From Armatimonadota bacterium (lineage in GTDB: Bacteria; Sysuimicrobiota; Sysuimicrobiia; Sysuimicrobiales; Sysuimicrobiaceae), in contig JAVKGW010000005.1 of assembly GCA_031460175.1 (NCBI GenBank), forward strand, positions 1 through 64,000: DNA of 64,000 nucleotides. Direction: 5' to 3'. Of this stretch, positions 1-27,027 are shown piece by piece. Under the pieces are notes generated by a model. It had not been told where the DNA came from. It did no database searches and saw only the letters and a list, made by a program, of their open reading frames with translations. The position numbers were made by a program, and so were the translations under genes. The stretch's first letter is position 1; each line of letters begins with the position of its first letter.

Positions 1-1
1 G

Positions 2-1089: not shown

Positions 1090-1093
1090 CGCG

Positions 1094-3054: not shown

Positions 3055-3120
3055 ACTCACGCCCCCTTTCCCGGCGGGTTCCGGTTCAGACGCCATGCGT
3101 CCGGCCCTCCCCCTCCGGCC

Positions 3121-3531
3121 TCACCCCTCCTTCCGGGGGATCGCGGCGATCCCCTCGATCTCCACCAGGGCCTCCTCCCGGAAGAAGCCGGTGACCTCGA
3201 AGAGGGCCATGGCGGGGTAGTAGCCGCCGAAGAAGGCCCGGAACACTTCCCCGATGGATCTCCGATGCTCCAGGTAGGCCGCGCGATCCCGCACGAAGAT
3301 GTTGAGCTTCACCACGTCCTGCAGGGTGCCACCCGCCGCCTCCACCACCGCCTGCAGGTTCGCGAGCGCCTGCCGGAACTGCTCCACGAGATCCGGAGCC
3401 AGACGGCCCTGGGGATCGCTGCCGTCCTGGCCGCCCAGGAACAGCAGATCCCGCCCCCGCACGAGGATCCCGTGGCTATACCCCCGGGGGGGCGGAAGGG
3501 AAGGCGGATTGATGATCCGGCGTTCCCCCAT
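3121..3531 (-). CDS. RidA/YjgF-family protein lacking the usual arginine
   Basis: This 136-residue protein has the RidA fold pattern (GGQDGSDPQGRLAPDLVEQ, then VVKLNIFVRD, then ALVEIEGIAAIP). In canonical RidA the catalytic arginine lies in a P-A-R-S/T segment before the final strand; here the segment reads YPAMALFEV. Imine deaminase activity is therefore doubtful. Related RidA proteins act as aminomuconate deaminases in tryptophan and aminobenzoate pathways, which fits its place 66 bp upstream of kynA on the same strand. The start at 3531 follows a GGGGAGAGG ribosome site. Confidence 0.78.
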   Translation of the reverse strand: MGERRIINPPSLPPPRGYSHGILVRGRDLLFLGGQDGSDPQGRLAPDLVEQFRQALANLQAVVEAAGGTLQDVVKLNIFVRDRAAYLEHRRSIGEVFRAFFGGYYPAMALFEVTGFFREEALVEIEGIAAIPRKEG

Positions 3532-3649
3532 CCTCTCCCCTGTGCTGCGGCCCGTGTCACCGGAACCCTTCGATGCCCGGATCCTCTTCCCTCCTTCCAG
3601 CACAGGAAATCTTCGGAAGTGGTGCGAATTTCCCGGGGGAGGTGATCTC

Positions 3650-4759: not shown

Positions 4760-4842
4760 CAGGAATCCCGTCCGGGTCCAGAGAACAAAACCACCTGTCC
4801 GCTCCCACCAGGGGCGGAGATCCTCGGAAAGGGGGAAGCAGC

Positions 4843-6075
4843 ATGCGCACGCGGAGGCTCGCGGTGCTGGCCATCCTGGGAATGGTTGCGGTGACCGCGC
4901 CCCGGGCAGGGGCGGGACCCTCCCTCCGGTTCGAGCGCAACATCAAGGTGGGGATCGTGGACACCTACAGCGGGCCGCCCGCGGTCTTCGGGAACGACGC
5001 CCTCAACGGCTTCCGGCTGGCCCTGGAGGAGATCAACCGGGAAGGGGTGCACGGTGCCCGCATCGAGTTCGTGACCCGGGACGAGAAGTTCAGCCCGGAG
5101 ATCGGGCTCAGCATGGCCCGGGAGCTGGTGTTGCAGGAGCGGGTGGACCTCCTGGTGGGCACCATCAGCAGCGCCACCGCCCTCGCCATCTCCGCCTTCG
5201 CCCGGGAGCAGCGGGTGCCCTTCCTCGTGTGGATCAGCAAGAGCGAGCAGATCACCGGGGCCAAAGGCCACCGGTACGTGTTCAGCACCTCGGAGAACAC
5301 CGCCATGGCCGGGAAGGCTCTGGCCTACGCCCTCGCCCGGCGGGGCTACACCCGGTTCTGGATCGGCGCGGAGGACTACGAGTACGGACACGCGGTCACC
5401 AACTCCTTCTGGCGGTTCATGAAGCGCGCGAAGCCCGAGGCCACCCTGCTGGGGCAGACCTGGTGGCGGACGGGGGAGCCGGACCTCGTCCCGTACCTCA
5501 CCCAGATCCTGCAGGCCAGGCCCGACGCCGCCTTCTTCGGAACGGGCGGGGCGGGCATGGCCAATGTGCTGCGCACCATGAAGGTGATCGGGTTCGCGGA
5601 ACGCGTTCCTTCCGCCATCCACACCGCCATCGACGTCACCGTGTTGCGACCCTTGGGCGCGGCGGCGCCGGAGGACGTGTGGGGCACCACGGACTATCTC
5701 TTCTACTACCCGGAGACCCCTGCGAACCGGGAGTTCGTGCGGCGGTTCCAGACCGCCTACCGGGATCCGCCAGGCTTCCCCGCCTTCCACGGGTACATCA
5801 CCGCGCATTTCATCGCGGAAGCGTATCGCCGGGCCCGGTCCCTGGACCGGGAGCGCTTCATCGAAGCCCTGGAGGGCCTGCGGATCCGTACACCCGTGGG
5901 GGAGGTGGAGATGCGGGCCTGCGACCATCAGGCGACCCTGCCCCTGTTCTTCGGGCGCACGAAGCGGGATCCCCAGTTCCCCTTCCTCGTGGCGGGGGAT
6001 CTCATGACCGTTCCGGCCCGGGAGGTCATGCCCACCTGCGAGGACATCCAGCGGGCAAGGACCCAGGGGCGGTAA
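4843..6075 (+). CDS. livK: branched-chain-type ABC substrate-binding protein
   Basis: This 410-residue periplasmic or secreted binding protein belongs to the Leu/Ile/Val receptor family. A signal peptide (basic MRTRR, hydrophobic stretch, APRAGA cleavage zone) is followed by IKVGIVDTYSGPPAVFG, the typical first strand and ligand loop. It heads an operon with two permeases and two ATPases. In purple bacteria importers of this family sit beside 4-hydroxybenzoate genes, so the ligand may be an aromatic acid rather than leucine; this is inferred from the neighbourhood only. A purine-rich ribosome site (GGAAAGGGGGAAGCAGC) precedes the ATG. Confidence 0.92.
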   Translation: MRTRRLAVLAILGMVAVTAPRAGAGPSLRFERNIKVGIVDTYSGPPAVFGNDALNGFRLALEEINREGVHGARIEFVTRDEKFSPEIGLSMARELVLQERVDLLVGTISSATALAISAFAREQRVPFLVWISKSEQITGAKGHRYVFSTSENTAMAGKALAYALARRGYTRFWIGAEDYEYGHAVTNSFWRFMKRAKPEATLLGQTWWRTGEPDLVPYLTQILQARPDAAFFGTGGAGMANVLRTMKVIGFAERVPSAIHTAIDVTVLRPLGAAAPEDVWGTTDYLFYYPETPANREFVRRFQTAYRDPPGFPAFHGYITAHFIAEAYRRARSLDRERFIEALEGLRIRTPVGEVEMRACDHQATLPLFFGRTKRDPQFPFLVAGDLMTVPAREVMPTCEDIQRARTQGR

Positions 6076-6085
6076 GGGGCAGGCC

Positions 6086-6964
6086 ATGGATCCCGTGGCC
6101 GTCCTGGGCCAGATCCTGGTGGGTCTGAGTCGGGCCATGATCCTGTTCATCGTGGCCGCGGGGCTCAGCCTCGTCCTGGGCGTGCTGCGGGTCCCGAACG
6201 TCTTCCACGGATCTCTGTACATGATCGGGGCCTTCGTGGCCTGGACGGTGGCGGAGGCGATGGGAGAGCACCCCGCCCGGCTGTGGGCGGCCCTCGTGGC
6301 CGCCCCGCTTGCCACCGCGGCGGTGGGGCTCGTGGTGGAGCGGACGCTCCTGTGCCGCCTCTACCAGCGGGAGCACCTCATGCTCATCCTCTTCACCTTC
6401 GGGGTCATGCTCATCCTCAACGATCTCGTGAAGCTCGGTTGGGGGCCCACCTACCGCTCCCTGGTGCCGCCGGAGGCCCTCCAGGGGTCGGTTTCCGTGC
6501 TCGGCGTGGCCCTCCCGAGGTACAACCTGGTGCTGCTCCTCGCCGGTCCCCTCGTGGCTACGGCCCTGTGGCTCTTTGCGCACCGCACGCGGATCGGGAA
6601 GATCGCGCGGGCCGCGGCCACGGACCGCGAGATGGTGGCGGTGCTCGGGATTGACGTGGGCCGGGTGTTCGCGGTGGCCTTCGGGGTGGGCTGTCTCCTC
6701 GCGGGGCTCGGGGGAGCCCTGGTGGCCCCCACCACCAGCATCACCCTGGGCATGGACCACACCCTGCTCATCGAGAGCTTCCTCATCGTGATCATCGGGG
6801 GACTGGGGAACCTCTGGGGAGCCCTGGTGGGATCCCTGCTCTTCGGCGTGGCGCATTCCGTGGGGCTGTTGATCTGGCCCCAGTTCGCCATCGCCTTTCC
6901 CTACGCCATCACCGCAGGGGTCCTGCTCCTGCGGCCTCAAGGGTTGTTGCGGTCCGTATGGTGA
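6086..6964 (+). CDS. livH: branched-chain-type ABC permease LivH
   Basis: This 292-residue integral membrane protein with about eight hydrophobic segments belongs to the LivH family. The LVLGVLRVPNVFHGSLYMIG segment near the N-terminus and the GGLGNLWGALVG loop near the C-terminus are characteristic. It forms the membrane channel with LivM. The gene begins 10 bp after livK, and its stop overlaps the livM start by 7 bp. Confidence 0.93.
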   Translation: MDPVAVLGQILVGLSRAMILFIVAAGLSLVLGVLRVPNVFHGSLYMIGAFVAWTVAEAMGEHPARLWAALVAAPLATAAVGLVVERTLLCRLYQREHLMLILFTFGVMLILNDLVKLGWGPTYRSLVPPEALQGSVSVLGVALPRYNLVLLLAGPLVATALWLFAHRTRIGKIARAAATDREMVAVLGIDVGRVFAVAFGVGCLLAGLGGALVAPTTSITLGMDHTLLIESFLIVIIGGLGNLWGALVGSLLFGVAHSVGLLIWPQFAIAFPYAITAGVLLLRPQGLLRSVW

Positions 6965-7923
6965 ACGGCACCCGGTTGGGCATCGGCGCGCTTCTCGCGG
7001 CCCTCCTGGCGGCGCCTGCCTTCCTGCCTCCCTTCTATGTGTACCTGCTGGCCCTCATCCTGGTAACAGGGCTCCTGGCCACCAGCCTGAACCTGGTGCT
7101 GGGGTTCGGGGGAATGTACCAGTTCCACCACGGGGTGTTCTACGGAATCGGGGCCTACACCTTGGCCATCGCCATCACGAAGTTGAACTGGCCCGCGTGG
7201 GCGGGCATGGTGGCGGGCCCGCTGGCGGCCGCGCTCGCGGGACTGTTGATGGGGCTCGTGTGCGTGCGGCTCGAGCGCCTGTACTTCGGCATGCTGCAGC
7301 TCTCCCTGGGCTCTTTCGTGTGGATCGTGGCCCTGCGCTGGTATCCCATCACCGGCGGGGACAACGGCCTCCACGGGATTCCGCTCCCCGCGGGGCTCCA
7401 GCCCCTGGACAGCGCGTACCGGTTCATCCTGGTCACCGTGGCGGCTTCCCTGCTGGCGCTCTGGGCCGTGGTGCGCTCGCCCTTCGGACTCACCCTGCAG
7501 GCCATCCGGGACAACCCGCAGCGATGCCCGGTGGTGGGGATCCCCGTGCGGGCACATCAGCTCGCGGCCATGGTCCTGGCTGCCTTCTTCGCCGGGGTGG
7601 CAGGAATCCTGTACGTGGTCCTCGAGCGGTCCGTGTTTCCGAACATGCTCTTCTGGGTGCTCTCCCTGGAGATCCTCGTGATGTGTCTGTTGGGCGGATG
7701 GTTCACGTTCCTGGGGCCCCTCCTCGGTGCGGCCCTGGTGGTGGCGCTCCGGGTCTTCGCCGGCCGCCACACGGAGTACTGGACCCTGATCCTCGGGGTC
7801 CTGCTCATCCTGCTCATCTTCTTCCTTCCGGAGGGGATCCTGGGGACCCTGAGGGCCCGACGCGCCCAGAATCTCCGAGTCTCGATGCCCCAGCCCACGC
7901 CCGCGGGGGACGCCCATGGGTAA
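6958..7923 (+). CDS. livM: branched-chain-type ABC permease LivM
   Basis: This 321-residue polytopic membrane protein is the partner of LivH. Family blocks include LATSLNLVLGFGGMYQFHHG (LivM proteins usually carry a GxxSxGxA/H variant here), a conserved AIRDNPQRC cytoplasmic loop that contacts the ATPase, and GGWFTFLGPLLGAALVV near the C-terminus. Start and stop codons overlap those of livH and livG, indicating tight translational coupling. Confidence 0.93.
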   Translation: MVNGTRLGIGALLAALLAAPAFLPPFYVYLLALILVTGLLATSLNLVLGFGGMYQFHHGVFYGIGAYTLAIAITKLNWPAWAGMVAGPLAAALAGLLMGLVCVRLERLYFGMLQLSLGSFVWIVALRWYPITGGDNGLHGIPLPAGLQPLDSAYRFILVTVAASLLALWAVVRSPFGLTLQAIRDNPQRCPVVGIPVRAHQLAAMVLAAFFAGVAGILYVVLERSVFPNMLFWVLSLEILVMCLLGGWFTFLGPLLGAALVVALRVFAGRHTEYWTLILGVLLILLIFFLPEGILGTLRARRAQNLRVSMPQPTPAGDAHG

Positions 7924-8665
7924 CCTGCTCCTGGTGGAGGGGCTGCACAAGGCCTTCGACGGATTCCCCGCTCTGCGGGGGGCCACGCTGGAAGTCCGGA
8001 CCGGCGAGGTGGTGGCGGTGATCGGCCCCAACGGCGCGGGGAAGACCACCCTGTTCCATCTCATCACGGGGGTGCTCCAGCCGGATCGCGGACGCGTGGT
8101 CTTCCAGGGTCGGGAAATCACCCGGTGGCCCGCGCACCGCCGCTGTGCCCTCGGCATCGGCCGCACCTTTCAGATCGCCAACGTCTTCCCCCGGCTGCGG
8201 GTCTTCGACAACGTGCACGTGGCGGTGCTGAGTCGCCACCGGAAAACCTTCCACCTAGCGCTCCCCGCCTCCCGGTTCGCCGCCCGGGAGGTGTGGGCCA
8301 TCCTGGAGCACGTGGGGCTGGCGGACAAAGCCCACCATCCCGCGGGGACCCTTTCCCACGGGGATCAGCGCACCCTGGAGATCGCCATCGCCCTCGCCGG
8401 CCGTCCGAAGCTCCTGGTCCTGGACGAGCCCACCGCGGGGATGTCGCCGGAGGAGACCGCGGCCACCCTGCGGCTTCTGGCCCGTCTCAACCAGGAGGAG
8501 GGGCTCACGGTGCTCTTCTGCGAGCACGACATGGAGGTGGTGTTCGCGACCGCCCACCGCATTGCGGTGATGCACCACGGCCGGACCGTGGTACAGGGAA
8601 GCCCCGAGGAAGTACGCCGGCACCCGGAGGTGCAGGCCGCGTACCTGGGGAGCGCGCATGCTTGA
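7916..8665 (+). CDS. livG: branched-chain-type ABC ATPase LivG
   Basis: This 249-residue ATP-binding subunit has Walker A GPNGAGKTTLFHL, the signature region LSHGDQRTLEIAIAL and Walker B LLVLDEPTAGM. The long insertion after Walker A, with RTFQIANVFPRLRVFDNV, is typical of LivG rather than LivF. The usual signature LSxGxQ appears as LSHGDQ, common in this family. It overlaps livM by 8 bp and livF by 8 bp. Confidence 0.94.
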   Translation: MGNLLLVEGLHKAFDGFPALRGATLEVRTGEVVAVIGPNGAGKTTLFHLITGVLQPDRGRVVFQGREITRWPAHRRCALGIGRTFQIANVFPRLRVFDNVHVAVLSRHRKTFHLALPASRFAAREVWAILEHVGLADKAHHPAGTLSHGDQRTLEIAIALAGRPKLLVLDEPTAGMSPEETAATLRLLARLNQEEGLTVLFCEHDMEVVFATAHRIAVMHHGRTVVQGSPEEVRRHPEVQAAYLGSAHA

Positions 8666-9353
8666 GGTGGAGGGGATCCACACCTACTACGGGCAGAGCC
8701 ACGTGCTCTTCGATGTCTCCTTGCAGGTCTGGGAGGGCGAGGTGGTGTTCCTGCTGGGCCGCAACGGGGCAGGCAAGACCACCACCCTCCGGAGCATCGT
8801 GGGCCTCACCCCGCCCCGACGGGGGCGGATCCGGTACCGCGGGGAAGACATCACGGGGCTTCCGCCCCATCGCATCGCGCAACGGGGGGTGGCGTACGTG
8901 CCCGACGATCGTCGCATCTTTCCCGACCTCACGGTCCAGGAGAACTTGGAGATCGCCTCCCACGCCCGCGGATCCCATTACTGGACCCTGGATCGGGTGT
9001 TCGAGCTCTTTCCCGTGCTTCGGGAAAAGCGCCACCACCGGGGAAGCGCCCTTAGCGGCGGGGAGCAGAAGATGCTCGCCATCGCCCGGGCGCTCGTAGG
9101 GAACCCGGATCTCCTGCTGCTGGACGAACCCATGGAGGGACTGGCTCCCCTCCTGGTGCGGGCCCTGGAGGAGCGGATCCGGGTGCTGAAGCGGTCCGGG
9201 CTCACGGTGCTTCTCGCGGAGCAGAACGTGCCCGCCGTCCTCCGGATTGCGGACCGGGGGTACATCATCGACGACGGCCGCATCCGGTTCGAGGGGACGG
9301 TGGAGGATCTGCGACGCCAGGAGGAGGTGCGGCGACGGTACCTCCTGATCTGA
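8658..9353 (+). CDS. livF: branched-chain-type ABC ATPase LivF
   Basis: This 231-residue ATPase subunit is the last conserved gene of the importer. It shows Walker A GRNGAGKTTTLRS, signature LSGGEQKMLAIARAL, Walker B LLLLDEPMEGLAP and the VPDDRRIFPDLTVQENL segment typical of LivF. Together with LivG it energises the permease. Confidence 0.94.
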   Translation: MLEVEGIHTYYGQSHVLFDVSLQVWEGEVVFLLGRNGAGKTTTLRSIVGLTPPRRGRIRYRGEDITGLPPHRIAQRGVAYVPDDRRIFPDLTVQENLEIASHARGSHYWTLDRVFELFPVLREKRHHRGSALSGGEQKMLAIARALVGNPDLLLLDEPMEGLAPLLVRALEERIRVLKRSGLTVLLAEQNVPAVLRIADRGYIIDDGRIRFEGTVEDLRRQEEVRRRYLLI

Positions 9354-9385
9354 GCTCGGAGCTCACGGCCCTGACCTGGCCGCGG

Positions 9386-10147
9386 GTGGAGGCCCTGCTG
9401 CAGGGGGGTCGGATCCCCGTGCTGCTCCTCCCCCTGGGGGCGGTGGAGCCCCACGGCCCTCATGCGCCCCTCGGGACCGATCTCCTCATCAGCCTGGGGA
9501 TGTGCCGGCGGGCCGCGGCGCGCCTCCGGGACGATCCCGAGGTGCAGATCCTGGTGCTCCCGCCCATCCCCTACGGCGTCACCCGCTACGCGGGCACGTT
9601 CCCCGGCGCGGTGAGCCTCTCGGAGGAGACCCTGTTTGCCCTCCTCGTGGACCTGTGCACGGACCTGTTCCGCCAGGGGTTCCGGTACCTGGTGGTGGTG
9701 AACAACCACCTCGAGCCCGAGCACGTGCGGACCATCCACCGAGCCCTGGACCACGTGGAGGCCCGCACCGGGGCCGTGGTGGGATACCTCGATCTCACCC
9801 GGCGGGAGCGCGCCGCGCGGCTTCCGGAGGAGTTCCGGAGCGGCGCCTGCCACGCGGGCCGATACGAGACCTCCCTCGTGCTGGCGGAGCAACCGGAGAC
9901 CGTAGACCGGGAGCGCATGCGGGCGCTGCCACCGGTCCCCGTGAGCCTCGTGGAGGCCATCCAGAGGGGGATTCGGGACTTCCGGGCCATGGGGCTTGAG
10001 CAGGCGTACTGCGGGGCACCCGCGGAGGCCACGCGGGAGGAGGGAGAGGCGATCTTCGAGATCCTCACGGACATGCTGGTGGGGGTCATCCGGGACCTGG
10101 TGCAGGGGGTGGGCGGTCGGGATCGGCCGGGAAGGTTCGGGCGGTGA
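9386..10147 (+). CDS. creatininase-family amidohydrolase
   Basis: This 253-residue protein has the creatininase metal-binding pattern: PLGAVEPHGPHAPLGTD (E, H, D ligands), VVVNNHLEPEH in the centre and CHAGRYETSLVL near residue 155. The family hydrolyses cyclic or linear amides (creatinine, amidated intermediates) or, as MftE, peptides. It directly follows livF, so it may act on an imported amide. The GTG at 9386 is the first standard start, but the frame is open upstream and the preceding residues (LTWPRVEALL) also look like the family N-terminus, so the true start may be near 9350 with a CTG codon. Confidence 0.82.
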   Translation: MEALLQGGRIPVLLLPLGAVEPHGPHAPLGTDLLISLGMCRRAAARLRDDPEVQILVLPPIPYGVTRYAGTFPGAVSLSEETLFALLVDLCTDLFRQGFRYLVVVNNHLEPEHVRTIHRALDHVEARTGAVVGYLDLTRRERAARLPEEFRSGACHAGRYETSLVLAEQPETVDRERMRALPPVPVSLVEAIQRGIRDFRAMGLEQAYCGAPAEATREEGEAIFEILTDMLVGVIRDLVQGVGGRDRPGRFGR

Positions 10148-10152
10148 GCCCT

Positions 10153-10794
10153 CTAGCCGGCTCTCAGGTACGTGAAGATGGCCTGCTTGCACCGCTCCCG
10201 GACCACCGGGTGCGTGGCCTCCAGGTCGGGTTCGTGAAGCCACTGGAGGAAGAACCCGTCCACCACCGCCCGGACCACGGAGGCCGCCTCCTGGACATCC
10301 CGCACCCGGAAGGCTCCCTCCCGCACGCCCTCCTCGATGATGTGCGCGTACACCGCGTCCACGATGTTCCTGAAGGTGGCGCTGAGCTCCTGAAAGCGAC
10401 GTTGGCGGGCCGCGGTACCCACCAGGTCCAGGTACACCAGGTAGAAGTCCCGGTTCGCCCGGGGATCCACGAAGATGGCGTCGATGGTGGCCCGTACCTT
10501 GTCCTCCGCACTCCCTGCCTGGCTCACCGCGGCGTGAATCCGGTGGCCCACCCGGGCCAGGACCCACCGCATGGTGGAGAGGATGAGGTCCTCCTTGGTA
10601 CCGAAGTAATAGAGCAACAGGCCCTTGTTGACCCCGGCCCGCTCCGCCACCCGGCGGAGGGTCATCTGCTTGAGGCCGCATTCTGCCAGGACCTGGTAGG
10701 TGCTGCGGAGCAGCTGGGTCTGCTTGGGGGAAAGGGACTCCTCCAGGGCCGCCACATGCGGCCGGATGGCCGCGGACCCGAACCCCGTCCTCAT
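10153..10794 (-). CDS. TetR/AcrR-family transcriptional regulator
   Basis: This 213-residue repressor-type protein has an N-terminal helix-turn-helix at about residues 40-65 (TLRRVAERAGVNKGLLLYYF) and a helical ligand-binding domain. It sits downstream in the liv direction and opens a minus-strand gene set; its ATG overlaps the TGA of the hemerythrin gene (ATGA in the shared four bases). It is the obvious candidate to bind the TGACC-N4-GGTCA-like palindromes upstream of the bzd and hcr operons; that link is inferred. The ligand would probably be a CoA thioester or aromatic acid. Confidence 0.9.
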   Translation of the reverse strand: MRTGFGSAAIRPHVAALEESLSPKQTQLLRSTYQVLAECGLKQMTLRRVAERAGVNKGLLLYYFGTKEDLILSTMRWVLARVGHRIHAAVSQAGSAEDKVRATIDAIFVDPRANRDFYLVYLDLVGTAARQRRFQELSATFRNIVDAVYAHIIEEGVREGAFRVRDVQEAASVVRAVVDGFFLQWLHEPDLEATHPVVRERCKQAIFTYLRAG

Positions 10795-11330
10795 CCCGTG
10801 CGCAGATGTTCGGCCAGTCGCCTCAGCCGTTGGTGTTCTCCTTCCCCCTGTGCGTGCTCGACCCCATCGTAGCAGCGCCCCACCTGTTCGTCATCCGTCG
10901 CTTCCAGCACCGCCTCCCCCATGGGGAAGAGGATCTCGTTCTCCTTGGCGATGTGGGACCGCAGCAGTTCCAGGTACTGCCATCCCAGGTCCACCACCGC
11001 CTCGGATCCGGATTGACCCGCCTCGTAGCGGTCCAAGGCCTCTGCCATCCGGCGCACCAGCTGCCGGCCCATCTCGTGTTCCATCAACATCACCCCGATG
11101 GGCCCGCCCTCCCGGGGAATCCCCCGCCGCTCCAGGCAGGGGAACAGGCAGTGCTCCTCCTTCCCATGGTGGCACCGATCCACAAAACCCTGGCAGAAGG
11201 CCACCAGGTCCCGCACATACCCGGGCCGGAGGGATCCGCCCTCTTGAACCTGCCGGAGGTGGCGCTCCAGCCCCTCCAGGGCGCCCAGGATGGTCTCGTG
11301 TTCCCGCCTGAGCTCCTCCGTGGACCGCAT
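10791..11330 (-). CDS. hemerythrin-like protein
   Basis: This 179-residue four-helix-bundle protein carries a full set of likely diiron ligands: H11, H54/H55, E59, H60, H85, H126 and E130, in HETIL, HHGKEEH, MEHEMG and HIAKENEILFP. Hemerythrins bind O2 at a diiron centre. Start at the ATG at 11330. It is translationally coupled to the TetR gene and lies 2 bp from a BadH-like dehydrogenase gene. A role in oxygen sensing or protection of the nearby oxygen-sensitive reductases is plausible but inferred. Confidence 0.87.
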   Translation of the reverse strand: MRSTEELRREHETILGALEGLERHLRQVQEGGSLRPGYVRDLVAFCQGFVDRCHHGKEEHCLFPCLERRGIPREGGPIGVMLMEHEMGRQLVRRMAEALDRYEAGQSGSEAVVDLGWQYLELLRSHIAKENEILFPMGEAVLEATDDEQVGRCYDGVEHAQGEGEHQRLRRLAEHLRTG

Positions 11331-11332
11331 GG

Positions 11333-12088
11333 CTACACCATGGTGAGCCCGCCCGAGACGCTGAGGGTCTGGCCCGTGATGAAGGAGGCGCGGTCGGAGG
11401 CCAGGAACAGGACTGCGTCCGCCACCTCCTCGGGTCGGGCCATGCGGCGCATGGGCGTGGAGCGGACGATGGCGTCTATGAGCTTCTCGTTGCCTGCCTC
11501 GATGATCTGCCGCAAGAGGGGCGTGTCCGTGATCCCGGGGGCCACCACGTTCACCCGGATGTTGTGCCGGGCCACCTCCCGGGCCAGGGCCTTGCTGAAG
11601 GCGATCACCGCGCCCTTCGCGCCTGAGTACACGGTCTCTCCACTGGATCCCACCCGGCCCGCGTCCGAGCTGATGTTCACCACCACGCCTCCGCCCTGGG
11701 CCACCATGTGGGGGAGTACCACGTGGCAGGTGTTCAGCACTCCCCGGAAGTTGATGGCGATGATCCGATCCCACAGGTCCTCCGTGCTCTCCAAAAAGGG
11801 CACGATGCGATCCCAGCCCGCGGCGTTTACCAGGATGTCCACGCGGCCCCAGGTCTCCAGGACCCTCTGGAATCCGGACACCACGCTTGCCCGATCCGTG
11901 ACGTCCATGGGAACCGCCAGGGCCTGGCCGTCCGCGCGGCGGATCTCCTCCGCCACGGCCTCCGCCCCCTCCCGGTTGACGTCCGCCACCGCCACCCGGG
12001 CTCCTCCGGCCGCGAAGCCCAGGCATGTAGCCCGGCCGATGCCGCTCGCCCCGCCGGTCACGAGCGCCACCCGATCCCGGAATTCCAT
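11333..12088 (-). CDS. BadH-like short-chain dehydrogenase
   Basis: This 251-residue SDR has the nucleotide motif TGGASGIGRA at 11-20, NAAG at 88-91 and catalytic S140, Y154 and K158. The blocks NAAGWDRIVPFLES and SSDAGRVGSSGETVYS closely match my recollection of BadH, the 2-hydroxycyclohexanecarboxyl-CoA dehydrogenase of Rhodopseudomonas. That would place it after the hydratase step of benzoyl-CoA degradation. A general 3-oxoacyl-ACP reductase-like role remains possible. Start at the ATG at 12088. Confidence 0.8.
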   Translation of the reverse strand: MEFRDRVALVTGGASGIGRATCLGFAAGGARVAVADVNREGAEAVAEEIRRADGQALAVPMDVTDRASVVSGFQRVLETWGRVDILVNAAGWDRIVPFLESTEDLWDRIIAINFRGVLNTCHVVLPHMVAQGGGVVVNISSDAGRVGSSGETVYSGAKGAVIAFSKALAREVARHNIRVNVVAPGITDTPLLRQIIEAGNEKLIDAIVRSTPMRRMARPEEVADAVLFLASDRASFITGQTLSVSGGLTMV

Positions 12089-12102
12089 GGCCTCCCTCCT
12101 CC

Positions 12103-12978
12103 CTAGCCCACGCTGACCGGTGTCTCCAATCGGAACAGGGCCACCGCGTTGTCCCGCACCACCTTCCGGTACACCTCCGGCCGCAGGCCCAACTCCCGCA
12201 ACTGTTGCAGGCTCTCCTTCCACGGGAGACCGTTCGTGCCCCACAGGCACCGGTCCTGCCCCAGGCGGCTGTTCATGAAGCGCACCAACTCCGGCTTCAG
12301 GTACTTGGGCATCCAGGCGTCGATGCCGATCCACACCGTATCCCACTTGTAGCACACGGAGATGAGCTCCTCCACCCACGGCCAGCCCGTGTGTGCGCCG
12401 ATGACCTTCAGGGTCGGGAAGTCGCAGAGGATCCGGTCCAGGTAGATGGGCCGGCCGTGCTCCGAAGGCTGCCCCTCCAGCACGTGCCCCACCTGCATGG
12501 AGACGGGGATGTCCAGCTCCACGCACTTGGCATAGAGGGGGTACATGCGGCGGTCGTGGAGGGGGATGTCGAAGCCATAGACGTGCACATACACGCCCCG
12601 AAAGCCGTACTCCTTCACGGCCCGCTCGATCTCCCGCAGGCTCTCCGGAATGCGGTAGGGATTGTAGCCCGCGAGTCCCACGAACCGGTCCGGGTAACGG
12701 AGGGTGTACTGCAAGACCTCCTCCAGCTGCGTGTCCATGTACATCCAGTGGTTGCGGTAGGACCACATCTTGCACTGGGTGATGAAGACCTTCTCCACCC
12801 CCGCCTCGTCCATGGCGCGCAGCATGGCCTCGATGGTGGGGAAGCTGGGAAGGCTTCCGCCGAGGGCCCGCTCCATGCGGCACACCAGCTCCCCCTCTTT
12901 CGCCTTGTTCCACCGGGCGATGAACTCCGGGGTGGCCACGTAGTACATGAAATCGATGGCCTTCACTTCCTCGAGCAC
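12103..12978 (-). CDS. amidohydrolase-2 family protein with altered metal site
   Basis: This 291-residue TIM-barrel protein resembles the ACMSD/amidohydrolase-2 family. The two later histidines are retained (MQVGHVLEG and VIGAHTGWPW), but the N-terminal HxH is replaced (IDFMYYVATP) and the final aspartate of the GSDxP motif is an asparagine (WGTNGLPW). Normal zinc binding is therefore unlikely. It lies between the BadH-like gene and bzdQ in the same direction, so it probably belongs to the aromatic operon. It may be a metal-independent decarboxylase or hydratase, or a regulatory homologue; I do not assign a reaction. Confidence 0.75.
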   Translation of the reverse strand: MLEEVKAIDFMYYVATPEFIARWNKAKEGELVCRMERALGGSLPSFPTIEAMLRAMDEAGVEKVFITQCKMWSYRNHWMYMDTQLEEVLQYTLRYPDRFVGLAGYNPYRIPESLREIERAVKEYGFRGVYVHVYGFDIPLHDRRMYPLYAKCVELDIPVSMQVGHVLEGQPSEHGRPIYLDRILCDFPTLKVIGAHTGWPWVEELISVCYKWDTVWIGIDAWMPKYLKPELVRFMNSRLGQDRCLWGTNGLPWKESLQQLRELGLRPEVYRKVVRDNAVALFRLETPVSVG

Positions 12979-12993
12979 CCGTCTCCCCTCCGG

Positions 12994-13797
12994 CTAGGCC
13001 GTGGCCCGCTCTTCAAGCCTTTGCAGCCGTCCCTGAGCCAGTTGAGCCGCTCCCAGAGCCGCCACGTACACGCCCTCCTCGTCGGAGGGCACGAGGAACT
13101 GGATCCGGAGGCTCTGTTCCAGCTGGCGGCGCATGAGGGGGACCCGAACGAGCCCTCCCGTGAGCACGTACGCGGGTTCCCCCCGCAGCCGCTTGACGAG
13201 CTGCCCCGCGCGTTCCGCCAGGGCCACGATGGCCCCCGCACACACATCCTCGGGGCTGCGGCCCGCCACCAGGTGATTGATGACCTCGCTTTCCGCGAAG
13301 ACCGCGCACACGCTGCTCACCACCGCGGGTTCCTTGGCGGCTTCCGCCAGCCGGGCGATGTCCGCGGCGGTGTATCCCATGTACCGCATGGTCTTTTCCA
13401 GGAAGGCGCCGCTTCCCGCCGCGCACTTGTCGTTGAGCCGGAAGGCCCGAACCCGGCCGCGCTCGTCCACCCGGATGGCTTTCACGTTCTGCCCCCCGAT
13501 GTCCAGGATGGTGCGGACCTCGGGATACATGCGGTGGACGGCCCAGGCCTGGGCCGTGAGGTCCGTGACGGCCAGGTCCCGGAAGGGCACCATGTGCCGG
13601 CCATAGCCCGTGGTGACCACGTAGCCCACCCGCTCCCGGGGCAGGCCCGCTCCCTCCAACGCCGCCTGCAGAGCCCGCTCCGCGGCCCGGGCGAAGTTGA
13701 AGCCCGTGGGCAGCATGGCACGGCCCACGACCTCCCCGTCGGCCAGGAGAACCGCCTTCGTGTACGTGGCGCCCACATCAATGCCCGCGACCAGCAT
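12994..13797 (-). CDS. bzdQ: benzoyl-CoA reductase ATPase subunit, BzdQ/BcrD-like
   Basis: This 267-residue ASKHA-fold ATPase belongs to the BcrA/BadF/BzdQ family. It has the phosphate loop [10 protein letters not shown] at 5-14, the [11 protein letters not shown] block, and two cysteines expected to hold the intersubunit [4Fe-4S] cluster: C125 in [10 protein letters not shown] and C164 in [11 protein letters not shown]. With its partner subunit it couples ATP hydrolysis to low-potential electron transfer to the dehydratase-like subunits. Both ATPase subunits are short, as in the Azoarcus Bzd type, unlike the longer Thauera BcrA. Its start overlaps the end of bzdP by 20 bp. Confidence 0.85.
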
Positions 13798-14635
13798 CCT
13801 CTCCCTCCCCTGTTCCGGCGCCCACGGGGACCCGCTCGCCCACCAGGACGTGGTCCAGGGCGAAGAGGGCGGCCCCGATGGCGCCGCAGTAATGGGATTC
13901 CTCGCTCACGTTCACGGGGACCCCGCTGAGCTCCCGGATGAGGTGCACCATGGCCACGTTCCGGGAGACCCCGCCCGTGAAGGTCAGCTCCGGCTCGATC
14001 CCCACCCGGCGCAGCAGGGAGAGGCTGCGCGCGGCGATGGCCGCGTGCACCCCCATGAGGATGTCCTCCACCTTCCGGCCCCGGGCGAGCCACCCCAGGA
14101 TCTCCGACTCCGCGAACACGGTGCAGGTGGTGGTGATGGTCACGGGGTTGCGGGCGGTGAGGGCGAGGGGGCCCAGCTCCCCCAGGGGGAGTTCCAGGGC
14201 GGCGCTGGCGGCCCCCAGGAACCGTCCCGTGCCCGCGGAGCACTTGTCGTTCATGCAGAAGTCCAGGACCTCCCCGTTCGGTCCTACCCGGATGGCCTTG
14301 GTGTCCTGCCCCCCGATGTCCAGCACCGTGCGCGTGCCCGGGAAGAGGAACACCGCGCCCCGGGCGTGGCAGCTGATCTCCGTGACCTGGGTGTTCCCGA
14401 ACTCCACCTTGAACCGGCCGTAGCCGGTGCCCACGGTGTAGGCCACCTCGTCCTCCCCGGCCCCGGCGTCCTGTAGGGCGGCCTCGAAGGCGGCCCGGGC
14501 CGCCTCGTTCAACCGGGCCCCCGTGTCCACCAGGGCCCGGCCCAGGATGACCCGGTTCAGGTTCATGATCACCGCCTTGGTCTGGGTGCTCCCCACGTCC
14601 ACCCCGGCCACCAGCGTGCGCGTGGCGATCACCAT
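13778..14635 (-). CDS. bzdP: benzoyl-CoA reductase ATPase subunit, BzdP-like
   Basis: This 285-residue ASKHA-family ATPase is paralogous to the following gene. It has [10 protein letters not shown] at 11-20, [11 protein letters not shown] at about 105-115, and cluster cysteines C132 ([13 protein letters not shown]) and C171 ([11 protein letters not shown]). The order N-O-P-Q of the four genes matches the order I recall for Azoarcus bzd genes, which supports the P/Q assignment; activators of 2-hydroxyacyl-CoA dehydratases look alike, so the reductase call depends on the full context. Confidence 0.84.
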
Positions 14636-14642
14636 AGCTCCC

Positions 14643-15926
14643 TCACCTCCTCGCCGCCTTGTGGGCCGCCAGGGCCTCGAAGAAGGCGTCCACCCGGTTC
14701 TTCACCTGTGCGTCGGACCACAGGCGCGGATCCACCAGGTCGGACTGGATGAAGAGTCCGGGGACATTCCGCTGGACCCGCATCCACTCCCGCACGTCCG
14801 GCAGGCCCGTGGAGACCGTGCGGCAGGACTTCACACCGTGGAAGCAGATGCCATCCACGTGCCACCGCCGTACCACATCATCCAGCCAGTCCTGCTGGTA
14901 GAACATGGACCCCGTGTAGCCCCAGTAGGCAGCGGTCACCATGCGCTCCGCGAAGCTCTCCAGGGGCCGGCTCAGGTCATAGGCGAACCCGGGGACGAAC
15001 CCGCCGCCCGCGAAGACCATGTACGTGCTGTGCACGAACACGCCCCCCCAGGAGGCGAAGAGCTCCACGAACCGGCGGAAGTGGCTGTAACAGGTGGTCC
15101 CCACCAGGACGAGGCGGAACCGTTCATCCGGTACCGCGGCCATGCCGAGCCGGATCCGCTCCTGCATCTCCCGGAGCACCTGCTGGAAGTACCGGCTCCC
15201 TTCCGGGCTTCCTCGGTACAGGTGCGCGATCCCCTGATACGTGACGCCCTCCACCACGGCGTTGAAGGGGGCGGGGACATGGCGGTTCGTCTCGCAGACC
15301 GCATGGTAGAGCTCCGCCATGCGGTTCGCCTCCGCCAGGTGCTCCCGGAAGCGATCCACATCGAAGCGCTTGCCCGTGACCTGCTCACACAGCCCGATCA
15401 GCTCCTGGAGCTGCCCGAGGACGTACCGGGCGTCGTTGTGGAAGGTCTCCCCGTCCAGGTCCGCGGAATCCCGGCCCCGCCATCCGGGCAGGTCCACCAC
15501 GAACACGGGGCACCCGTAGAGGTGCTCCCAGATCTCGGACCACTTGATGTAGGTGTTGCAGACGTTGGAGGTCACTACCAGGGAGGGACGCGGGACCTTG
15601 CCGTACGGGTGTTCCCCCTGCCGGAGCTGGAGTCCCACGTCCGCCTTGACGTAGCCGCACACGTCCGGGGAGAACCCGTAGTCCTCCGCGGTCTGGATGT
15701 ACGCCTGGGACTGCCCGCGCACTGCGATCTGCAGGGAGGTGATCTCCGGGAAGTTCAGCACGAAATCGAAGGTGCGCAGCAGCTCCGCCATGGACCCCAT
15801 GGCGAACACGTATGCGGTGGGCCGTCCCGTCTGGGCGGCCTCCGTCATCTCCTGCCACCACAGGTCCATAAGTCGTTTGCCTTCCCGTCGGGTCGCTCCC
15901 AGGATTTCCTCAGCGGATGTGCCCAC
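14643..15926 (-). CDS. bzdO: benzoyl-CoA reductase subunit, BzdO/BcrB-like
   Basis: This 427-residue member of the 2-hydroxyacyl-CoA dehydratase D family forms, with BzdN, the substrate-binding half of class I benzoyl-CoA reductase. Likely [4Fe-4S] cysteines lie in [16 protein letters not shown] and HGVKSCRT. The start is the GTG at 15926, preceded by AAGGAGG with a 5-base spacer; an upstream ATG would run into bzdN. It follows bzdN by 11 bp and precedes bzdP by 7 bp. Confidence 0.86.
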
Positions 15927-15937
15927 GGCCGCCTCCT

Positions 15938-17098
15938 TCAGGCGAACTGGAACAGCAGGGACTCTGCAAAGGTCTCCACTTCCATCCCCACCTGCTCGAA
16001 GACCGTCATGCTCTCCTCGAACTCCATCACGAGATGTGGAATCCCGGCCGCTTCGAGCGCCCGGGCGTAGTGCACCTGCTCCTCGAGTCCCGGCTCGCAC
16101 ATCTTCGCCGCGGCCACGATGGCCGCCTCCGCCCCGGACTCCCGGATGCGCCGCAGGAGCATCTCCGCCTTGGGCTTGCGCGGATCCCGCTGCACGGGGC
16201 TGTAGCTGCTGCGGTTCAGGTAGCTATCCGCCAGGTTCCGCCAGGGGTCTCCCTCCAGCGGCACGTCCTCCGTAATCCACCGCAGCCCGATCATGAGGTC
16301 GTCGTCCACGATGTAGCAGGCGTTCTGGATGACCGCCAGCATGTCCAGGGCCGGCTGCTCGCAGAACCCGCCCTCGAACACCACCCGGATGCGGTCCTGC
16401 TTCTTGACGGGCCGCTGGGGCAGGAGCTCCAGCACCCGGCGCAGGAGGGCGTTGTGCTCCTCCCGGGGCATGAGACCCGCGGACCGCACCAGGAGGTAGC
16501 TCTCCACCGCGCTCAACAACCACGGGGTCTCCCGCTTGATCCGGTACACCTCCCGGAGCAGCCTGCGGTTCTCGTTGAAGAGCGCAATGCTGGCGCGCAG
16601 GGCCTCATCCGTAATGGGGCGCCCGCCGACCTCCTCCAGAATCCGGCCGATGCGTCGGTACTCCCCCGTGAGGTAGTCCACCGCGTGCGCGCTCGCCGCG
16701 TTGTGGGGGTGGTAGAGGGTCTCCACTCGCATGTGGGGGAAGCTGCGGACCCACACCCCACACGCGTTCCGGGCCGCGTCGCAGATGTTGGGGATCACCA
16801 TGACGCTCAGGAAGTCCAGCCGCCCGGAGAGGGCCAGCTCCAGGGAACTGCGGACGATGGAGCACACGAAGGCCGCGATGCGGGCATCCGCCTGGCGCAC
16901 CTGGATGGTGCCCCCCGCGCCCGCGATCTTGAGGGGGAGCATCCCCGCGGCATGGGCGATCTCCTCCGGGAAGAACACCTGAAAGGACCCCACCACCTTG
17001 CCTCCCGGGTTCTGCGCCAGCCACCGCCGAACCGCGGGGAAGGAGGGATCCTCCACCAGGGCCCTCAGGTCGTCGAAGATCCGTTCCAACTCGTCCAC
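15938..17098 (-). CDS. bzdN: benzoyl-CoA reductase subunit, BzdN/BcrC-like
   Basis: This dehydratase-D-family protein of 386 residues, close to the length I recall for BcrC, is the other substrate-side subunit. Cysteines in AAFVCSIVRS, IPNICDAARNACG and KMCEPG are candidate cluster ligands. I choose the GTG at 17098, preceded by GAGGGGAACC, over a TTG at 17131, because the extra residues would be encoded by a palindromic operator-like sequence just downstream of a good -10 box. It is the first gene of the bzdNOPQ set. No ferredoxin gene follows, so the electron donor is encoded elsewhere. Confidence 0.86.
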   Translation of the reverse strand: MDELERIFDDLRALVEDPSFPAVRRWLAQNPGGKVVGSFQVFFPEEIAHAAGMLPLKIAGAGGTIQVRQADARIAAFVCSIVRSSLELALSGRLDFLSVMVIPNICDAARNACGVWVRSFPHMRVETLYHPHNAASAHAVDYLTGEYRRIGRILEEVGGRPITDEALRASIALFNENRRLLREVYRIKRETPWLLSAVESYLLVRSAGLMPREEHNALLRRVLELLPQRPVKKQDRIRVVFEGGFCEQPALDMLAVIQNACYIVDDDLMIGLRWITEDVPLEGDPWRNLADSYLNRSSYSPVQRDPRKPKAEMLLRRIRESGAEAAIVAAAKMCEPGLEEQVHYARALEAAGIPHLVMEFEESMTVFEQVGMEVETFAESLLFQFA

Positions 17099-17112
17099 GG
17101 TTCCCCTCGTTT

Positions 17113-17129
17113 TATCCAACCGGTCAGTC
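17113..17129 (-). promoter_or_regulatory. candidate TetR-type operator upstream of bzdN
   Basis: The plus strand reads TATCCAACCGGTCAGTC. It shares the octamer GGTCAGTC with the site upstream of hcrC at 26204-26211, and includes the perfect hexamer palindrome ACCGGT. The outer half-site is degenerate. It sits directly downstream of the -10 box. Confidence 0.45.
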
Positions 17130-17131
17130 AA

Positions 17132-17173: not shown

Positions 17174-17911
17174 TCATTTTTCCTGATGCAGATGGAGGCC
17201 CTTGCCGTCCCGGGGGAACAGCCCCTGTTGGAGGGCACGGGCCACGGCCTCTGCCCGGGTATGGGCCCCCAGCTTGCGCAGGAGGTTCTGCACGTGGTTG
17301 CGGACGGTGGCGGTGGAGAGGACCAGGGTGCGGGCGATGGCCTCCGTGTCCATGCCCTGGGCCAGCAAGGCCAGGACCTCCCGCTCCCTCCGGGTGAGGG
17401 GGTGCTTGACCGCGCCCACGGTGGCGAGAAGCCCCTCCCGCGCCGCCAGCAGCTCCACCAGCTCCTCCACGGTCCGCTGGCGGGTCACATCCCGGAAGAG
17501 GTGTACCAGAAACACGTCCTGGGGGTCTGGACCGGGACGAAGCACCAGGGTGCTGGTGTTCACCCACACGTACCGGCCGTCCCGCGTGCGGTAGCACACG
17601 TCCCGGGGAGGGATGGTTTCCTCCGCGCGGGCCATGGCGAACTCCGGACACCCCGGGCAACACACCAGGTGTCCGTTCCGGTCGTAGCCCGCCACCACCC
17701 GGTAGCACGGCCGGCCCACCACCTCCTCCTGAGACCATCCCAGCAACTTCTCCGCGGCCCGGTTCCACAGGATGATCCGCTGGCGGCCATCCACCACCAG
17801 GGCCGGCTCGCCTGCCCGTTCCAGGGCCTCCAGGGCCACCCGGAGGCCCTCGGACACCCGCCGTGCGCTGCTCACGGCCTCCGCCCGCTTCACGCCCATC
17901 ACCCCCCTCAT
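17174..17911 (-). CDS. PAS-LuxR regulator with a cysteine cluster
   Basis: This 245-residue regulator has a PAS domain at about residues 30-145 and a LuxR-type helix-turn-helix at about 170-235 (LTRREREVLALLAQGM, then STATVRNHVQNLLRKL). The PAS domain contains C69, C84, C85 and C88 plus H81 (HLVCCPGCPE), suited to a metal, FeS or thiol redox sensor. Its ATG overlaps the TGA of dch (ATGA), so it is produced with the aromatic enzymes. An ATG 12 bp upstream is an alternative start. It probably controls the flanking degradation genes. Confidence 0.87.
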   Translation of the reverse strand: MRGVMGVKRAEAVSSARRVSEGLRVALEALERAGEPALVVDGRQRIILWNRAAEKLLGWSQEEVVGRPCYRVVAGYDRNGHLVCCPGCPEFAMARAEETIPPRDVCYRTRDGRYVWVNTSTLVLRPGPDPQDVFLVHLFRDVTRQRTVEELVELLAAREGLLATVGAVKHPLTRREREVLALLAQGMDTEAIARTLVLSTATVRNHVQNLLRKLGAHTRAEAVARALQQGLFPRDGKGLHLHQEK

Positions 17912-18672
17912 CGGTGTTTCCATCTCGCCCCGCGCTTCTCGAGGAAGGCCCGGAGCCCTTCGTGCGCGTCCTCCGTGGACATGAGGTCCCCCAGATAGAG
18001 GCGCTCCGCTTCCTGCAATGCCTCCGCAAACCACCGCCGGAACGTGGCCACGGCCGCCCGCTTCGTGAGGTGAAGGACCGCTGCGCTGTGAGCCCGGAGC
18101 TGTTCCACCACCCGCCGCACCGCCTCCTCCAGCTGGCCGGAGGGGACCACCTCCGTCACCAGGCCCAGCTCCTGCGCCCGCCGGGCGGGGAGGATCTCTC
18201 CGGTGAGGAGGGGCAGGATCCCCCGCTTGCCGAACAGGAAAGGGAAGGCGGCCGCGGCCACGGGCGGAAATACCCCTACCCGGATCTCGGGCTGCCCGAA
18301 GGTCGCTTCCTCCGCGGCCACCACCACGTCGCACAGGGCCACCACCTCGCACCCGCCTCCCAGGGCGGGGCCTTGGACGGAGGCCACCGTGGGCACGTCC
18401 ACCCAGACCAGGGTGCGGCACAGGTCGTGGAAGGCCTCCATCATCTCGTGCACCCTGTCCGCGGTGTGCTCCGCCACGTCCACTCCCGCGGAGAAGGACC
18501 GGCCCCGGGCGCCCAGGACGATGGCCCGCACCGTGCGATCCTCCGCGGCTGCGCGCAATGCGGCCGCGAGCTCCCGCATGACCGCGATGGTGAGGATGTT
18601 GTGGGGCGGCCGGTTCAGGGTGACCCACCGGACGCCCTCCTCGTGTCGGACCTCCACCGCGCCTTCCGTCAT
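17908..18672 (-). CDS. dch: cyclohexa-1,5-dienecarbonyl-CoA hydratase-like crotonase
   Basis: This 254-residue crotonase has the oxyanion-hole segments SFSAGVDV and ALGGGCEV. The blocks [33 protein letters not shown] and [16 protein letters not shown] resemble dienoyl-CoA hydratases (Dch), which add water to the product of benzoyl-CoA reductase. Position 1.2 kb from the reductase operon strengthens the call. It overlaps the acyl-CoA dehydrogenase and the PAS-LuxR gene by 4 bp each. Confidence 0.83.
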
Positions 18673-19859
18673 GGAGCCTCCTCCGCGGGCGCCGTTGAGG
18701 CCGACCGCAGGACCTCCTGGGCCACCACCAGGGTCTGGATCTCCGAGGTTCCCTCGTAGATGCGCAGGGCCCGAACCTCCCGGTACAGCCGCTCCACGGG
18801 GCTCCCGTGCACCACTCCCCGCGCTCCCCACAGCTGCACCGCGCTGTCCACGACCCGTTGCGCGGCCTCCGTGGCGTACAGCTTGGCCATGGAGGCCTCC
18901 CGGGTGGCCCGCCGCCTCAGCTCGTCCTTCACCCACGCGGCCCGGTACACCAGCAGGGCCGCGGCGTCCACCTCCAGGGCCATGTGAGCCAGCTTCTCCC
19001 GCACCAGCTGGAACCGGCTCAGGACCTGCCCAAACGCCACCCGCTCCTGCACGAACTTCAACGCCTCCTGGAGGGCCCGGCGGGCGAATCCCAGGGCAGC
19101 GGCGCCCACCGTGGTCCGGAAGACGTCCAGGGTCCGCATGGCCACCTCGAACCCCTGCCCTTCCTCCCCCAGCCGGTGGCTCTCCGGCACCCAGCAGCCC
19201 CGGAGGCTGAGGGTCCCGAGCGGATGCGGAGCGAGGACCCGGATCCGCTCGCTGACCACAAGCCCCGGTGCATCCGCGTCCACCACGAAGGCGCTGAGCC
19301 CCTCTCTGCCGGGGCCGCCCGTGCGGGCGAACACCACGTAGTGGTCCGCGAGCCCCGCGTTGGAGATCCAGGTCTTCACGCCCTCCAGCACGTACCCCCC
19401 CTCCGATCGGCGGGCGGAGGTGGTGATCCCGGCGACATCCGAGCCCGCCTGGGGCTCGGAGAGGGCGAAGGCCGCGATGCGATGGCCGCGGGCCACCTCC
19501 GGGAGGTAGCGGGCCCGCAGGGAGTCGCTCCCGAAGAGGGTGATGGGCGCGCTCCCCAATCCCTGCATGGCGAAGGCGAAGTCCGCCAGCCCGGAGTACC
19601 CCGCCAGGATCTCCCGGACCAGGCACAGGCTCCGCACGTCCAGGCCCTCGAACACCCCCCCGTAGGCCCGGGGCACGCAGTACCTCAGCCAGCCCGCTTC
19701 CCCCAGCCTGCGCACCAGCTCCCGGCTCACCCGATCTGGATCCTCCTCCTCGTGGGCCGCGAGCGGCTCCGCCTCCTGTTGGGCCCACGCCTCCAACTCC
19801 CGCGCCAGGCGGCGGTGGGTTTCCCCGAAGAAGGGCCAGAGGAGGTGGTCCCGGTTCAC
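18669..19859 (-). CDS. acyl-CoA dehydrogenase
   Basis: This 396-residue flavoprotein has [14 protein letters not shown] and the C-terminal [10 protein letters not shown] block; the glutamate of YEGT is the position of the catalytic base in many family members. The start is the GTG at 19859, which shares its G with the TAG stop of the upstream crotonase. Neighbours suggest a ring or side-chain CoA thioester substrate, for example a cyclohexanecarboxyl-CoA or phenylpropanoyl-CoA; sequence alone does not decide. Confidence 0.88.
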
Positions 19860-20668
19860 TAGTCGCCCTCGAAGGTGGGGCTGCGGCGCTCCACGAAGGC
19901 CTGGTATCCCCGGGCGAAGTCCCGGGTGAGCATGCACAGGGCCTGGGCCTGGGCCTCCGATTCGATGGCCTCGTCCAGCGGCATCTCCCACTCCTTGTGG
20001 AGCATGCGCTTGGTCATGGCGTGCGCAAAGGTGGGCCCCTGTGCGATCTGGCGCGCCAGCTGCTGGGCTTCCTGGAGCAGGGTCTCCGGCGGGCACAGGC
20101 GGTTGAAGAAGCCCCACCGCTCCGCCTCCTCCCCGCTCATCTCCCGCCCCGTGTACAGGAGCTCCGCGGCCCGCCCCAGGCCCACGATGCGGGGCAGGAG
20201 CGCGCACGCGCCCATATCCGAGCCCGCAAGCCCCACCCGCACGAACAGGAAGGCCACCCGGCTCCGGGGAGTCCCCAGGCGCAGGTCGCACGCGGCCGCG
20301 ATCACCGCCCCTGCCCCCACACACACCCCGTCCACCGCGGCGATCAGGGGCTGCGGGCAGTGCCGCATGGCGATCACCAGGTCCCCCGTCATGCGGGTGA
20401 ACGCCAGCTTCCCGCGCACGTCCATGTCCAGAAGGGGCCGGATGATCTCGTGCACGTCTCCTCCGGAGCAGAAGTTGCCGCCGGCTCCCGTGATCACCAC
20501 GGCCTTCACGTCCTCCACCCGGTCCAGAAGGCGAAACGTGTCCCTGAGCTCCGCGTAGCTCTCGAAGGTGAGGGGGTTTTTCCGCTCCGGACGGTTCAGG
20601 GTGATGGTGGCGATCCCGTCCTGTACCTCCCACAGGAAGTGCTGGGGGTTCAGGTCTGCTCCGCGCAT
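19859..20668 (-). CDS. enoyl-CoA hydratase/isomerase family protein
   Basis: This 269-residue crotonase has [31 protein letters not shown] (oxyanion hole) and [12 protein letters not shown]. Close relatives, as I recall, occur with acyl-CoA dehydrogenase and ligase genes in aminobenzoate or aryl-acid clusters. It is shorter than ring-opening hydrolases of the Oah/BamA type (about 375 residues), so it is not an obvious ring hydrolase, though a BadI-like role cannot be excluded. Confidence 0.85.
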
Positions 20669-23258: not shown

Positions 23259-23267
23259 GGCCGCCTC

Positions 23268-25676: not shown

Positions 25677-25689
25677 GTGCGCTCCTCCC

Positions 25690-27015: not shown

Positions 27016-27027
27016 GGGCGGACCTCC

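Follow-up and report, generated by a model that had tools for sequence, protein, structure and literature searches.

Known ring hydrolases and amidohydrolase-fold proteins

In the known aryl-CoA pathways, reduction of the ring is followed by hydration and oxidation, and the resulting beta-oxo ring thioester is then hydrolysed by Oah or BadI, both of which adopt the crotonase fold. The step that we propose here for a protein encoded in the window, that is, the whole 64,000-nucleotide stretch of an Armatimonadota genome that was analysed, is identical to that of Oah (BamA, TIGR03200) and BadI (TIGR03210), but the fold is unrelated. An amidohydrolase, BamU (Gmet_2147), is encoded in the anaerobic benzoate cluster of Geobacter metallireducens, with no function assigned, and Geobacter possesses Oah (BamA) as well. 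In the excerpted text of PMC12016498, BamU of Geobacter is described as a homologue of ThnN (43% similarity), which is singled out there as the strongest candidate still left for opening the first ring in anaerobic naphthalene degradation, a metal-activated water being assumed; the same text states that neither N47 nor NaphS2 was found to have oah, and that one hydratase of the thn pathway likewise has no identified gene.

A barrel of this type devoid of the metal ligands is already known from the solved structure of BB4693 (PDB 3irs/3k4w), annotated as uncharacterized. As in the window protein, both the HxH motif (IDFRLRP) and the Asp (GTAYP) are gone, although the replacements are different and our tree separates the BB4693 relatives, which show R,R,D,P,H,A at the six positions, from the window protein. 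The BB4693-like genes at loci L152-L160 carry this signature, and their neighbours in the fetched stretches match no CoA-pathway reference. A further member of the amidohydrolase superfamily, LigI (2-pyrone-4,6-dicarboxylate lactonase, cog3618), is reportedly a metal-independent hydrolase; it is said to keep HxH and Asp and to differ from the window protein in subfamily and substrate. We know of no amidohydrolase-superfamily enzyme that acts on acyl-CoA.

The window operon and its amidohydrolase-fold protein

The operon, on the minus strand, spans 28473 to 11333 and ends with the amidohydrolase gene, followed by a BadH-like SDR gene. Domain and profile searches identified, in the order of transcription, two genes for an NDP-forming acyl-CoA synthetase (26293-28473), three molybdenum hydroxylase-type genes (22257-26178; all matches below cut-offs), of which beta and alpha are nearest to 4-hydroxybenzoyl-CoA reductase and gamma is about equally near to other members, an AMP-forming acyl-CoA ligase (20685-22253), an enoyl-CoA hydratase family protein (19859-20668; NF006107 above cut-off), an acyl-CoA dehydrogenase (18669-19859, start approximate), a Dch-like enoyl-CoA hydratase (17908-18660; TIGR03189, 160.8 bits versus a cut-off of 292.5) and a PAS-LuxR regulator (17174-17900, start approximate). 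These are followed by a class I benzoyl-CoA-reductase-like system consisting of two HGD-D subunits, BcrC-like (15938-17131; 310.1 bits, cut-off 421.15) and BcrB-like (14643-15990, start approximate), and two BcrAD/BadFG activase subunits, BcrA-like (13778-14635, 285 aa) and BcrD/BzdQ-like (12994-13797). The terminal SDR dehydrogenase (11333-12088) has BadH as its best model (TIGR03206, 304.9 bits versus 431.2).

The sequence-only reading had placed the gene in an aromatic operon, which the aryl-CoA reductase genes support, and specifically in a bzd operon next to bzdQ. The neighbour is indeed an activase gene for which bzdQ is the best benzoyl-CoA-specific model, but its 171.6 bits are far under the cut-off of 380.2, bzdN (145.6 versus 453.8) and bzdO (98.3 versus 448.6) fall short as well, and for the remaining three subunits bcr models outscore bzd models; none of the reductase subunits reaches any bcr or bzd equivalog cut-off. 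HGD2 of the window is 50-51% identical to that of two Aromatoleum genomes and 47-60% identical to matches in G065, G101 and G102, compared to 36-37% for a Paramagnetospirillum genome (G100), and G072 yielded no HGD2 match. Judged by these scores and identities, the operon is benzoyl-CoA-reductase-like and nearer to bcr and to the Aromatoleum set than to bzd. At the Aromatoleum toluolicum locus (L080), Had, Oah and Dch all score above their cut-offs, HGD1 comes first and ABC-transporter genes lie on the opposite strand, an arrangement that resembles the mbdO/mbdB1 layout in the excerpted text of PMC4424350 and would make this set mbd-like.

Other features of the window include a Hemerythrin-HHE-like frame, recognized by eye, downstream of the SDR gene (10791-11330, minus strand), a creatininase-family gene (9386-10147, plus strand) that comes after branched-chain ABC transporter genes and is convergent with the operon, and a tmRNA gene (42247-42600, minus strand) with a tag ending in VTQPALAAAA.

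The gene of interest (12103-12978, minus strand, stop codon included) starts with GTG and encodes 291 aa. The product belongs to Amidohydro_2 (PF04909; E 1.2e-35, 124.1 bits versus a cut-off of 26.4), and no NCBIfam model matched it at E values up to 0.1. AlphaFold2, with a 43-row alignment (A3) as input, predicts a TIM barrel (mean pLDDT 90.2, pTM 0.90). The closest solved structure to this model is that of BB4693 (3irs_A; Z 28.4, rmsd 2.9, 268 residues), followed by 3cjp (Z 23.5) and then by decarboxylases near Z 22; the fold neighbours include 5-carboxyvanillate, dihydroxybenzoate and ACMS decarboxylases as well as LigJ hydratase structures (2gwg, Z 20.2; 6dxs, Z 20.1). The translation, PF04909 match, predicted model and clade conservation described below point to a ThnN-type protein of the amidohydrolase-2 fold that lacks HxH.

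That HxH is replaced (DFMYY) and the terminal Asp changed to Asn (GTNG), as claimed from the sequence, is borne out by translation and alignment. The beta-1 site reads I8-D9-F10-M11-Y12-Y13, with His at neither ligand position and the codons of M11-Y12-Y13 (12940-12948) in place of HxH, and the beta-8 site reads G247-T248-N249-G250, with N249 (12232-12234) in place of Asp. The same reading counted two remaining histidines. Both are present, namely, H165 in beta-5 (MQVGH165; 12484-12486) and H196 in beta-6 (GAH196TGWPW; 12391-12393), but the count is three, with H132 (12583-12585) at the end of beta-4, a site that we take to be outside the canonical ligand positions. Conservation across A3 is complete for H132 and H196 and at least 90% for H165. 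DSSP places strands of the predicted model at residues 7-12, 128-131, 159-163, 192-196 and 244-246, so that the six key residues, M11, Y13, H132, H165, H196 and N249, are located inside barrel strands, at their ends or slightly beyond them; the three histidines are at or just past the ends, on the side where the active site normally lies.

Relatives, their neighbourhoods and the distribution of Oah and BadI

Relatives were collected by scanning genome contigs, mostly from MAGs. At least 593 stretches matched, 588 of the 593 listed encode a relative, and the 80 best loci were retained. Among these, the titles of loci near the window protein name Armatimonadota, Rokubacteria, Acidobacteria, Acetothermia, Binatia, TA06, Fraserbacteria, Planctomycetota, Myxococcota, Methylomirabilota and Deltaproteobacteria, and among the relatives listed the replaced positions and the three histidines are fixed across about ten phyla. 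In the tree of 123 rows (rows under 240 aa and three near-duplicates omitted; a further alignment, A2, excludes L006, L007, L008 and L028), HxH is lost in 111, intact in 8 and falls in missing columns in 4, proportions that carry no information on PF04909 at large because the rows were picked by similarity to the window protein. The latter belongs to a clade of 41 rows (SH-aLRT 96), in which all 40 rows that cover the sites show M,Y,H,H,H,N; on this alignment, the loss of HxH is the mark of a family wider than the clade. Comparison of the window gene with two relatives gave dN/dS ratios of 0.11 (0.056/0.49) and 0.13 (0.086/0.66), as expected of a gene under purifying selection, and these values together with the strict clade conservation rule out decay. 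Six peptide patterns of the window protein found no match in viral contigs.

To label neighbouring genes, we compared them by BLAST with a reference set drawn from annotated plasmids, from L080 and from the window itself; matchless frames were left without a label, so another hydrolase could be hidden among them. The 40 close loci of the best 80 (at least 67% identity) encode a reductase subunit in 27 cases, the full four-subunit set in 22 and none in 13. SDR or Had is found in 32 of the 40, with an SDR among the neighbours in 28, and a hydratase in 24, often similar to the Dch-like one of the window, whereas Oah is not seen in any of the fetched stretches. All 22 loci with the full set carry SDR (19) or Had (3) and 13 carry ECH/Dch, with Oah in none. 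Several of the 13 loci without reductase are on short contigs, yet L034, L039, L049, L050, L065 and L084 exceed 10 kb. In the remaining 40 loci (below 67% identity), reductase subunits are found in 5 and Oah in 3, and a recognized aryl-CoA reductase is absent from 35. Relatives on plasmids likewise reside in clusters without a recognized aryl-CoA reductase, some of these being ligase/ACAD clusters. The HxH-less relatives on Paracoccus and Natrinema plasmids (L022, L023) are accompanied by SDR, acyl-CoA dehydrogenase and enoyl-CoA hydratase, with no thiolase in the (incomplete) gene table, a content compatible with oxidation of an alicyclic ring that is then opened by hydrolysis.

Searches of 48 genome entries, covering the close loci other than L059, L065, L066, L071 and L084, detected neither Oah nor BadI above cut-off in any of the 40 entries of the clade (two of which, G004 and G061, are apparently one genome), compared to 4 and 2, respectively, of the 8 others. 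The Oah-positive entries are two Aromatoleum, Paramagnetospirillum caucaseum and one Tectomicrobia MAG, and the BadI-positive ones are the two Aromatoleum. The presence of BadI in the window genome was rejected: the 311-bit match there is MenB, and the matches in G000 and G020 are MenB; in G076, a BadI-like match scores 363 bits against a cut-off of 467.6. Oah shares a cluster with a relative of 49-52% identity in each of Aromatoleum toluolicum, A. buckelii and Paramagnetospirillum caucaseum, and HxH-less relatives from outside the clade of the window protein stand beside Oah at L080, L081 and L086; in the Tectomicrobia genome with L097, Oah is found elsewhere in the genome.

Across 395 genomes of one phylum, genes of this group and Had are weakly anticorrelated (12 genomes shared, 19.9 expected, P 0.014; the 74 genomes with the former include carriers of BB4693-like genes, and the 106 with Had include two below cut-off). 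Of the 20 stretches surrounding Had that were fetched from genomes of a single phylum (one of them only 4.5 kb long), 4 contain a PF04909-like gene, and all 4 genes have kept HxH and Asp. In L177-L179, the gene directly follows Had-Oah-Dch, and in L183 it is one gene before Had-Oah. These genes (L177, 4733-5620; L178, 11124-12050; L179, 11317-12177; L183, 6401-7231), from the phylum of G096, are possibly BamU-like. Thus, metal-type relatives can occupy Oah clusters, whereas members of the window protein clade occupy Oah-free ones, a division that these sequences suggest.

A link to naphthalene degradation comes from a thn-ordered operon (L197, positions 1-12980 of G106:C68), which runs from a pyridine-nucleotide oxidoreductase through an unassigned 183-aa frame, two MaoC genes, thiolase, 3HCDH, two ECH genes, the amidohydrolase, acyl-CoA dehydrogenase, SDR and acetyl-CoA hydrolase/transferase to AtuA, within which the contig ends. 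Apart from the oxidoreductase ahead, this is the NaphS2 order thnH-I-J-K-L-M-N-O-W-P-Q in the table of PMC12016498, and by gene order the amidohydrolase would be ThnN. It shares 40% identity and all six residues, M,Y,H132,H165,H196,N249, with the window protein; as in the window genome, Oah above cut-off is absent, with no match at E up to 1e-30 in G106. Among the 11 genomes covered by that search, Oah is above cut-off in one, G286, in which the relative (L201) has the same six residues and there is no reductase in the stretch. The systems differ in that the window reductase is mbd/bcr-like, the best HGD match in the L197 genome being only 30% identical and partial, and in that no MaoC or AtuA gene is seen in the window operon. 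The labels of L172-L173 in G161 also suggested a thn-like locus, which the surrounding genes did not bear out.

Possible functions

The labelled clusters supply reduction, oxidation and often hydration together with a recurrent amidohydrolase-fold protein, but no known ring hydrolase, and we therefore propose ring-opening hydrolysis, at slightly below even odds (about 0.45): the window protein may be a hydrolase of the ThnN type that opens the ring and lacks the canonical metal site. The fixed set of M11, Y13, H132, H165, H196 and N249 would have taken the place of that site, and the protein would act in a CoA-thioester pathway after aryl-CoA dearomatization. Hydratase and dehydrogenase would make a beta-oxo ring CoA ester, which the window protein would open hydrolytically, the role of Oah or BadI elsewhere; His, Tyr and Asn might polarize the ring ketone, and one conserved His might activate water, the C-C bond being split by retro-Claisen cleavage. 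The missing hydrolysis suspected in the sequence-only reading fits these clusters, the lack of Oah and BadI above cut-off and the recurrence of the signature in the thn-ordered operon, at the place of ThnN. The main contrary fact is that Aromatoleum, Paramagnetospirillum and G286 have Oah besides the protein, whose substrate in these cases may be a methylated intermediate or one further down the pathway. Also counting against the proposal are the ThnN homologue BamU in an organism with Oah, the Oah gene of the Tectomicrobia genome, the 13 close loci and many distant relatives without a reductase, the BadI-like match in G076 and the fact that we know of no superfamily member acting on acyl-CoA. 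Alternatively, the ring could be opened by an operon crotonase or MenB.

The 'metal-free' label of the sequence-only reading is tentative. The three conserved histidines at the predicted strand ends could still bind a metal, and a metalloenzyme with a rearranged site on H132, H165 and H196 would be compatible with any of the reactions considered here. The invariance of all three in a 14-row alignment that includes the thn-type relative, and their location on the active-site side, speak for such an enzyme; with Tyr or Gln at the H165 position of some relatives and H132 presumably off the canonical ligand sites, we consider it a doubtful, albeit substantial, alternative. It is unlikely that the protein hydrates dearomatized CoA esters without opening the ring and thereby feeds a separate ring hydrolase: although LigJ, a hydratase, shares the fold, relatives co-occur with Oah in Aromatoleum, and the thn pathway also needs a hydratase (PMC12016498, excerpted text), Dch-like hydratases are already present in many close loci and the clade genomes are devoid of Oah and BadI above cut-off.

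An accessory CoA-ester hydrolase, that is, a thioesterase or an enzyme repairing dead-end intermediates, would account for the occurrence in Oah-containing, Oah-free and reductase-free clusters, with contexts ranging from anaerobic reductase clusters to plasmid ligase/ACAD clusters, but the tight operon place and strict conservation in Oah-free clusters suggest a main-line step and make this role quite unlikely. Decarboxylation of an aromatic or ring acid entering or leaving the pathway, also raised from the sequence, is favoured by nothing beyond the fold shared with 5-carboxyvanillate, dihydroxybenzoate and ACMS decarboxylases, and these enzymes are metal-dependent, which counts against it, as does the recurrence of reductase and dehydrogenase, often with hydratase, as in a ring-oxidation module; we deem it very unlikely. 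Finally, the loss of the canonical ligands could signify that catalysis has been lost altogether and that the protein has a structural or regulatory role instead, an option to which we give hardly any weight given that the replaced positions and the three histidines are fixed across about ten phyla.

The ring-opening reading, if correct, would add a third, non-crotonase solution, in which a C-C hydrolase of the amidohydrolase fold cleaves CoA esters but does not have the superfamily metal site. About ten phyla would use it in aryl-CoA-reductase pathways devoid of Oah, and naphthalene degraders would use it in the form of ThnN; judging from the sequences, we put forward this broader scheme tentatively. 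Titles and the beginnings of abstracts in open-licence PMC yielded no statement of a ring hydrolase with a non-canonical site. According to the excerpted text of PMC12016498, the first-ring opener of anaerobic naphthalene degradation is still being sought, and the ThnN reading assumes metal-activated water; the non-canonical site shared by the thn-type relative and the reductase-linked group cautions against taking a zinc enzyme for granted. The proposal would provide one testable prediction that applies to many uncultured aromatic degraders.
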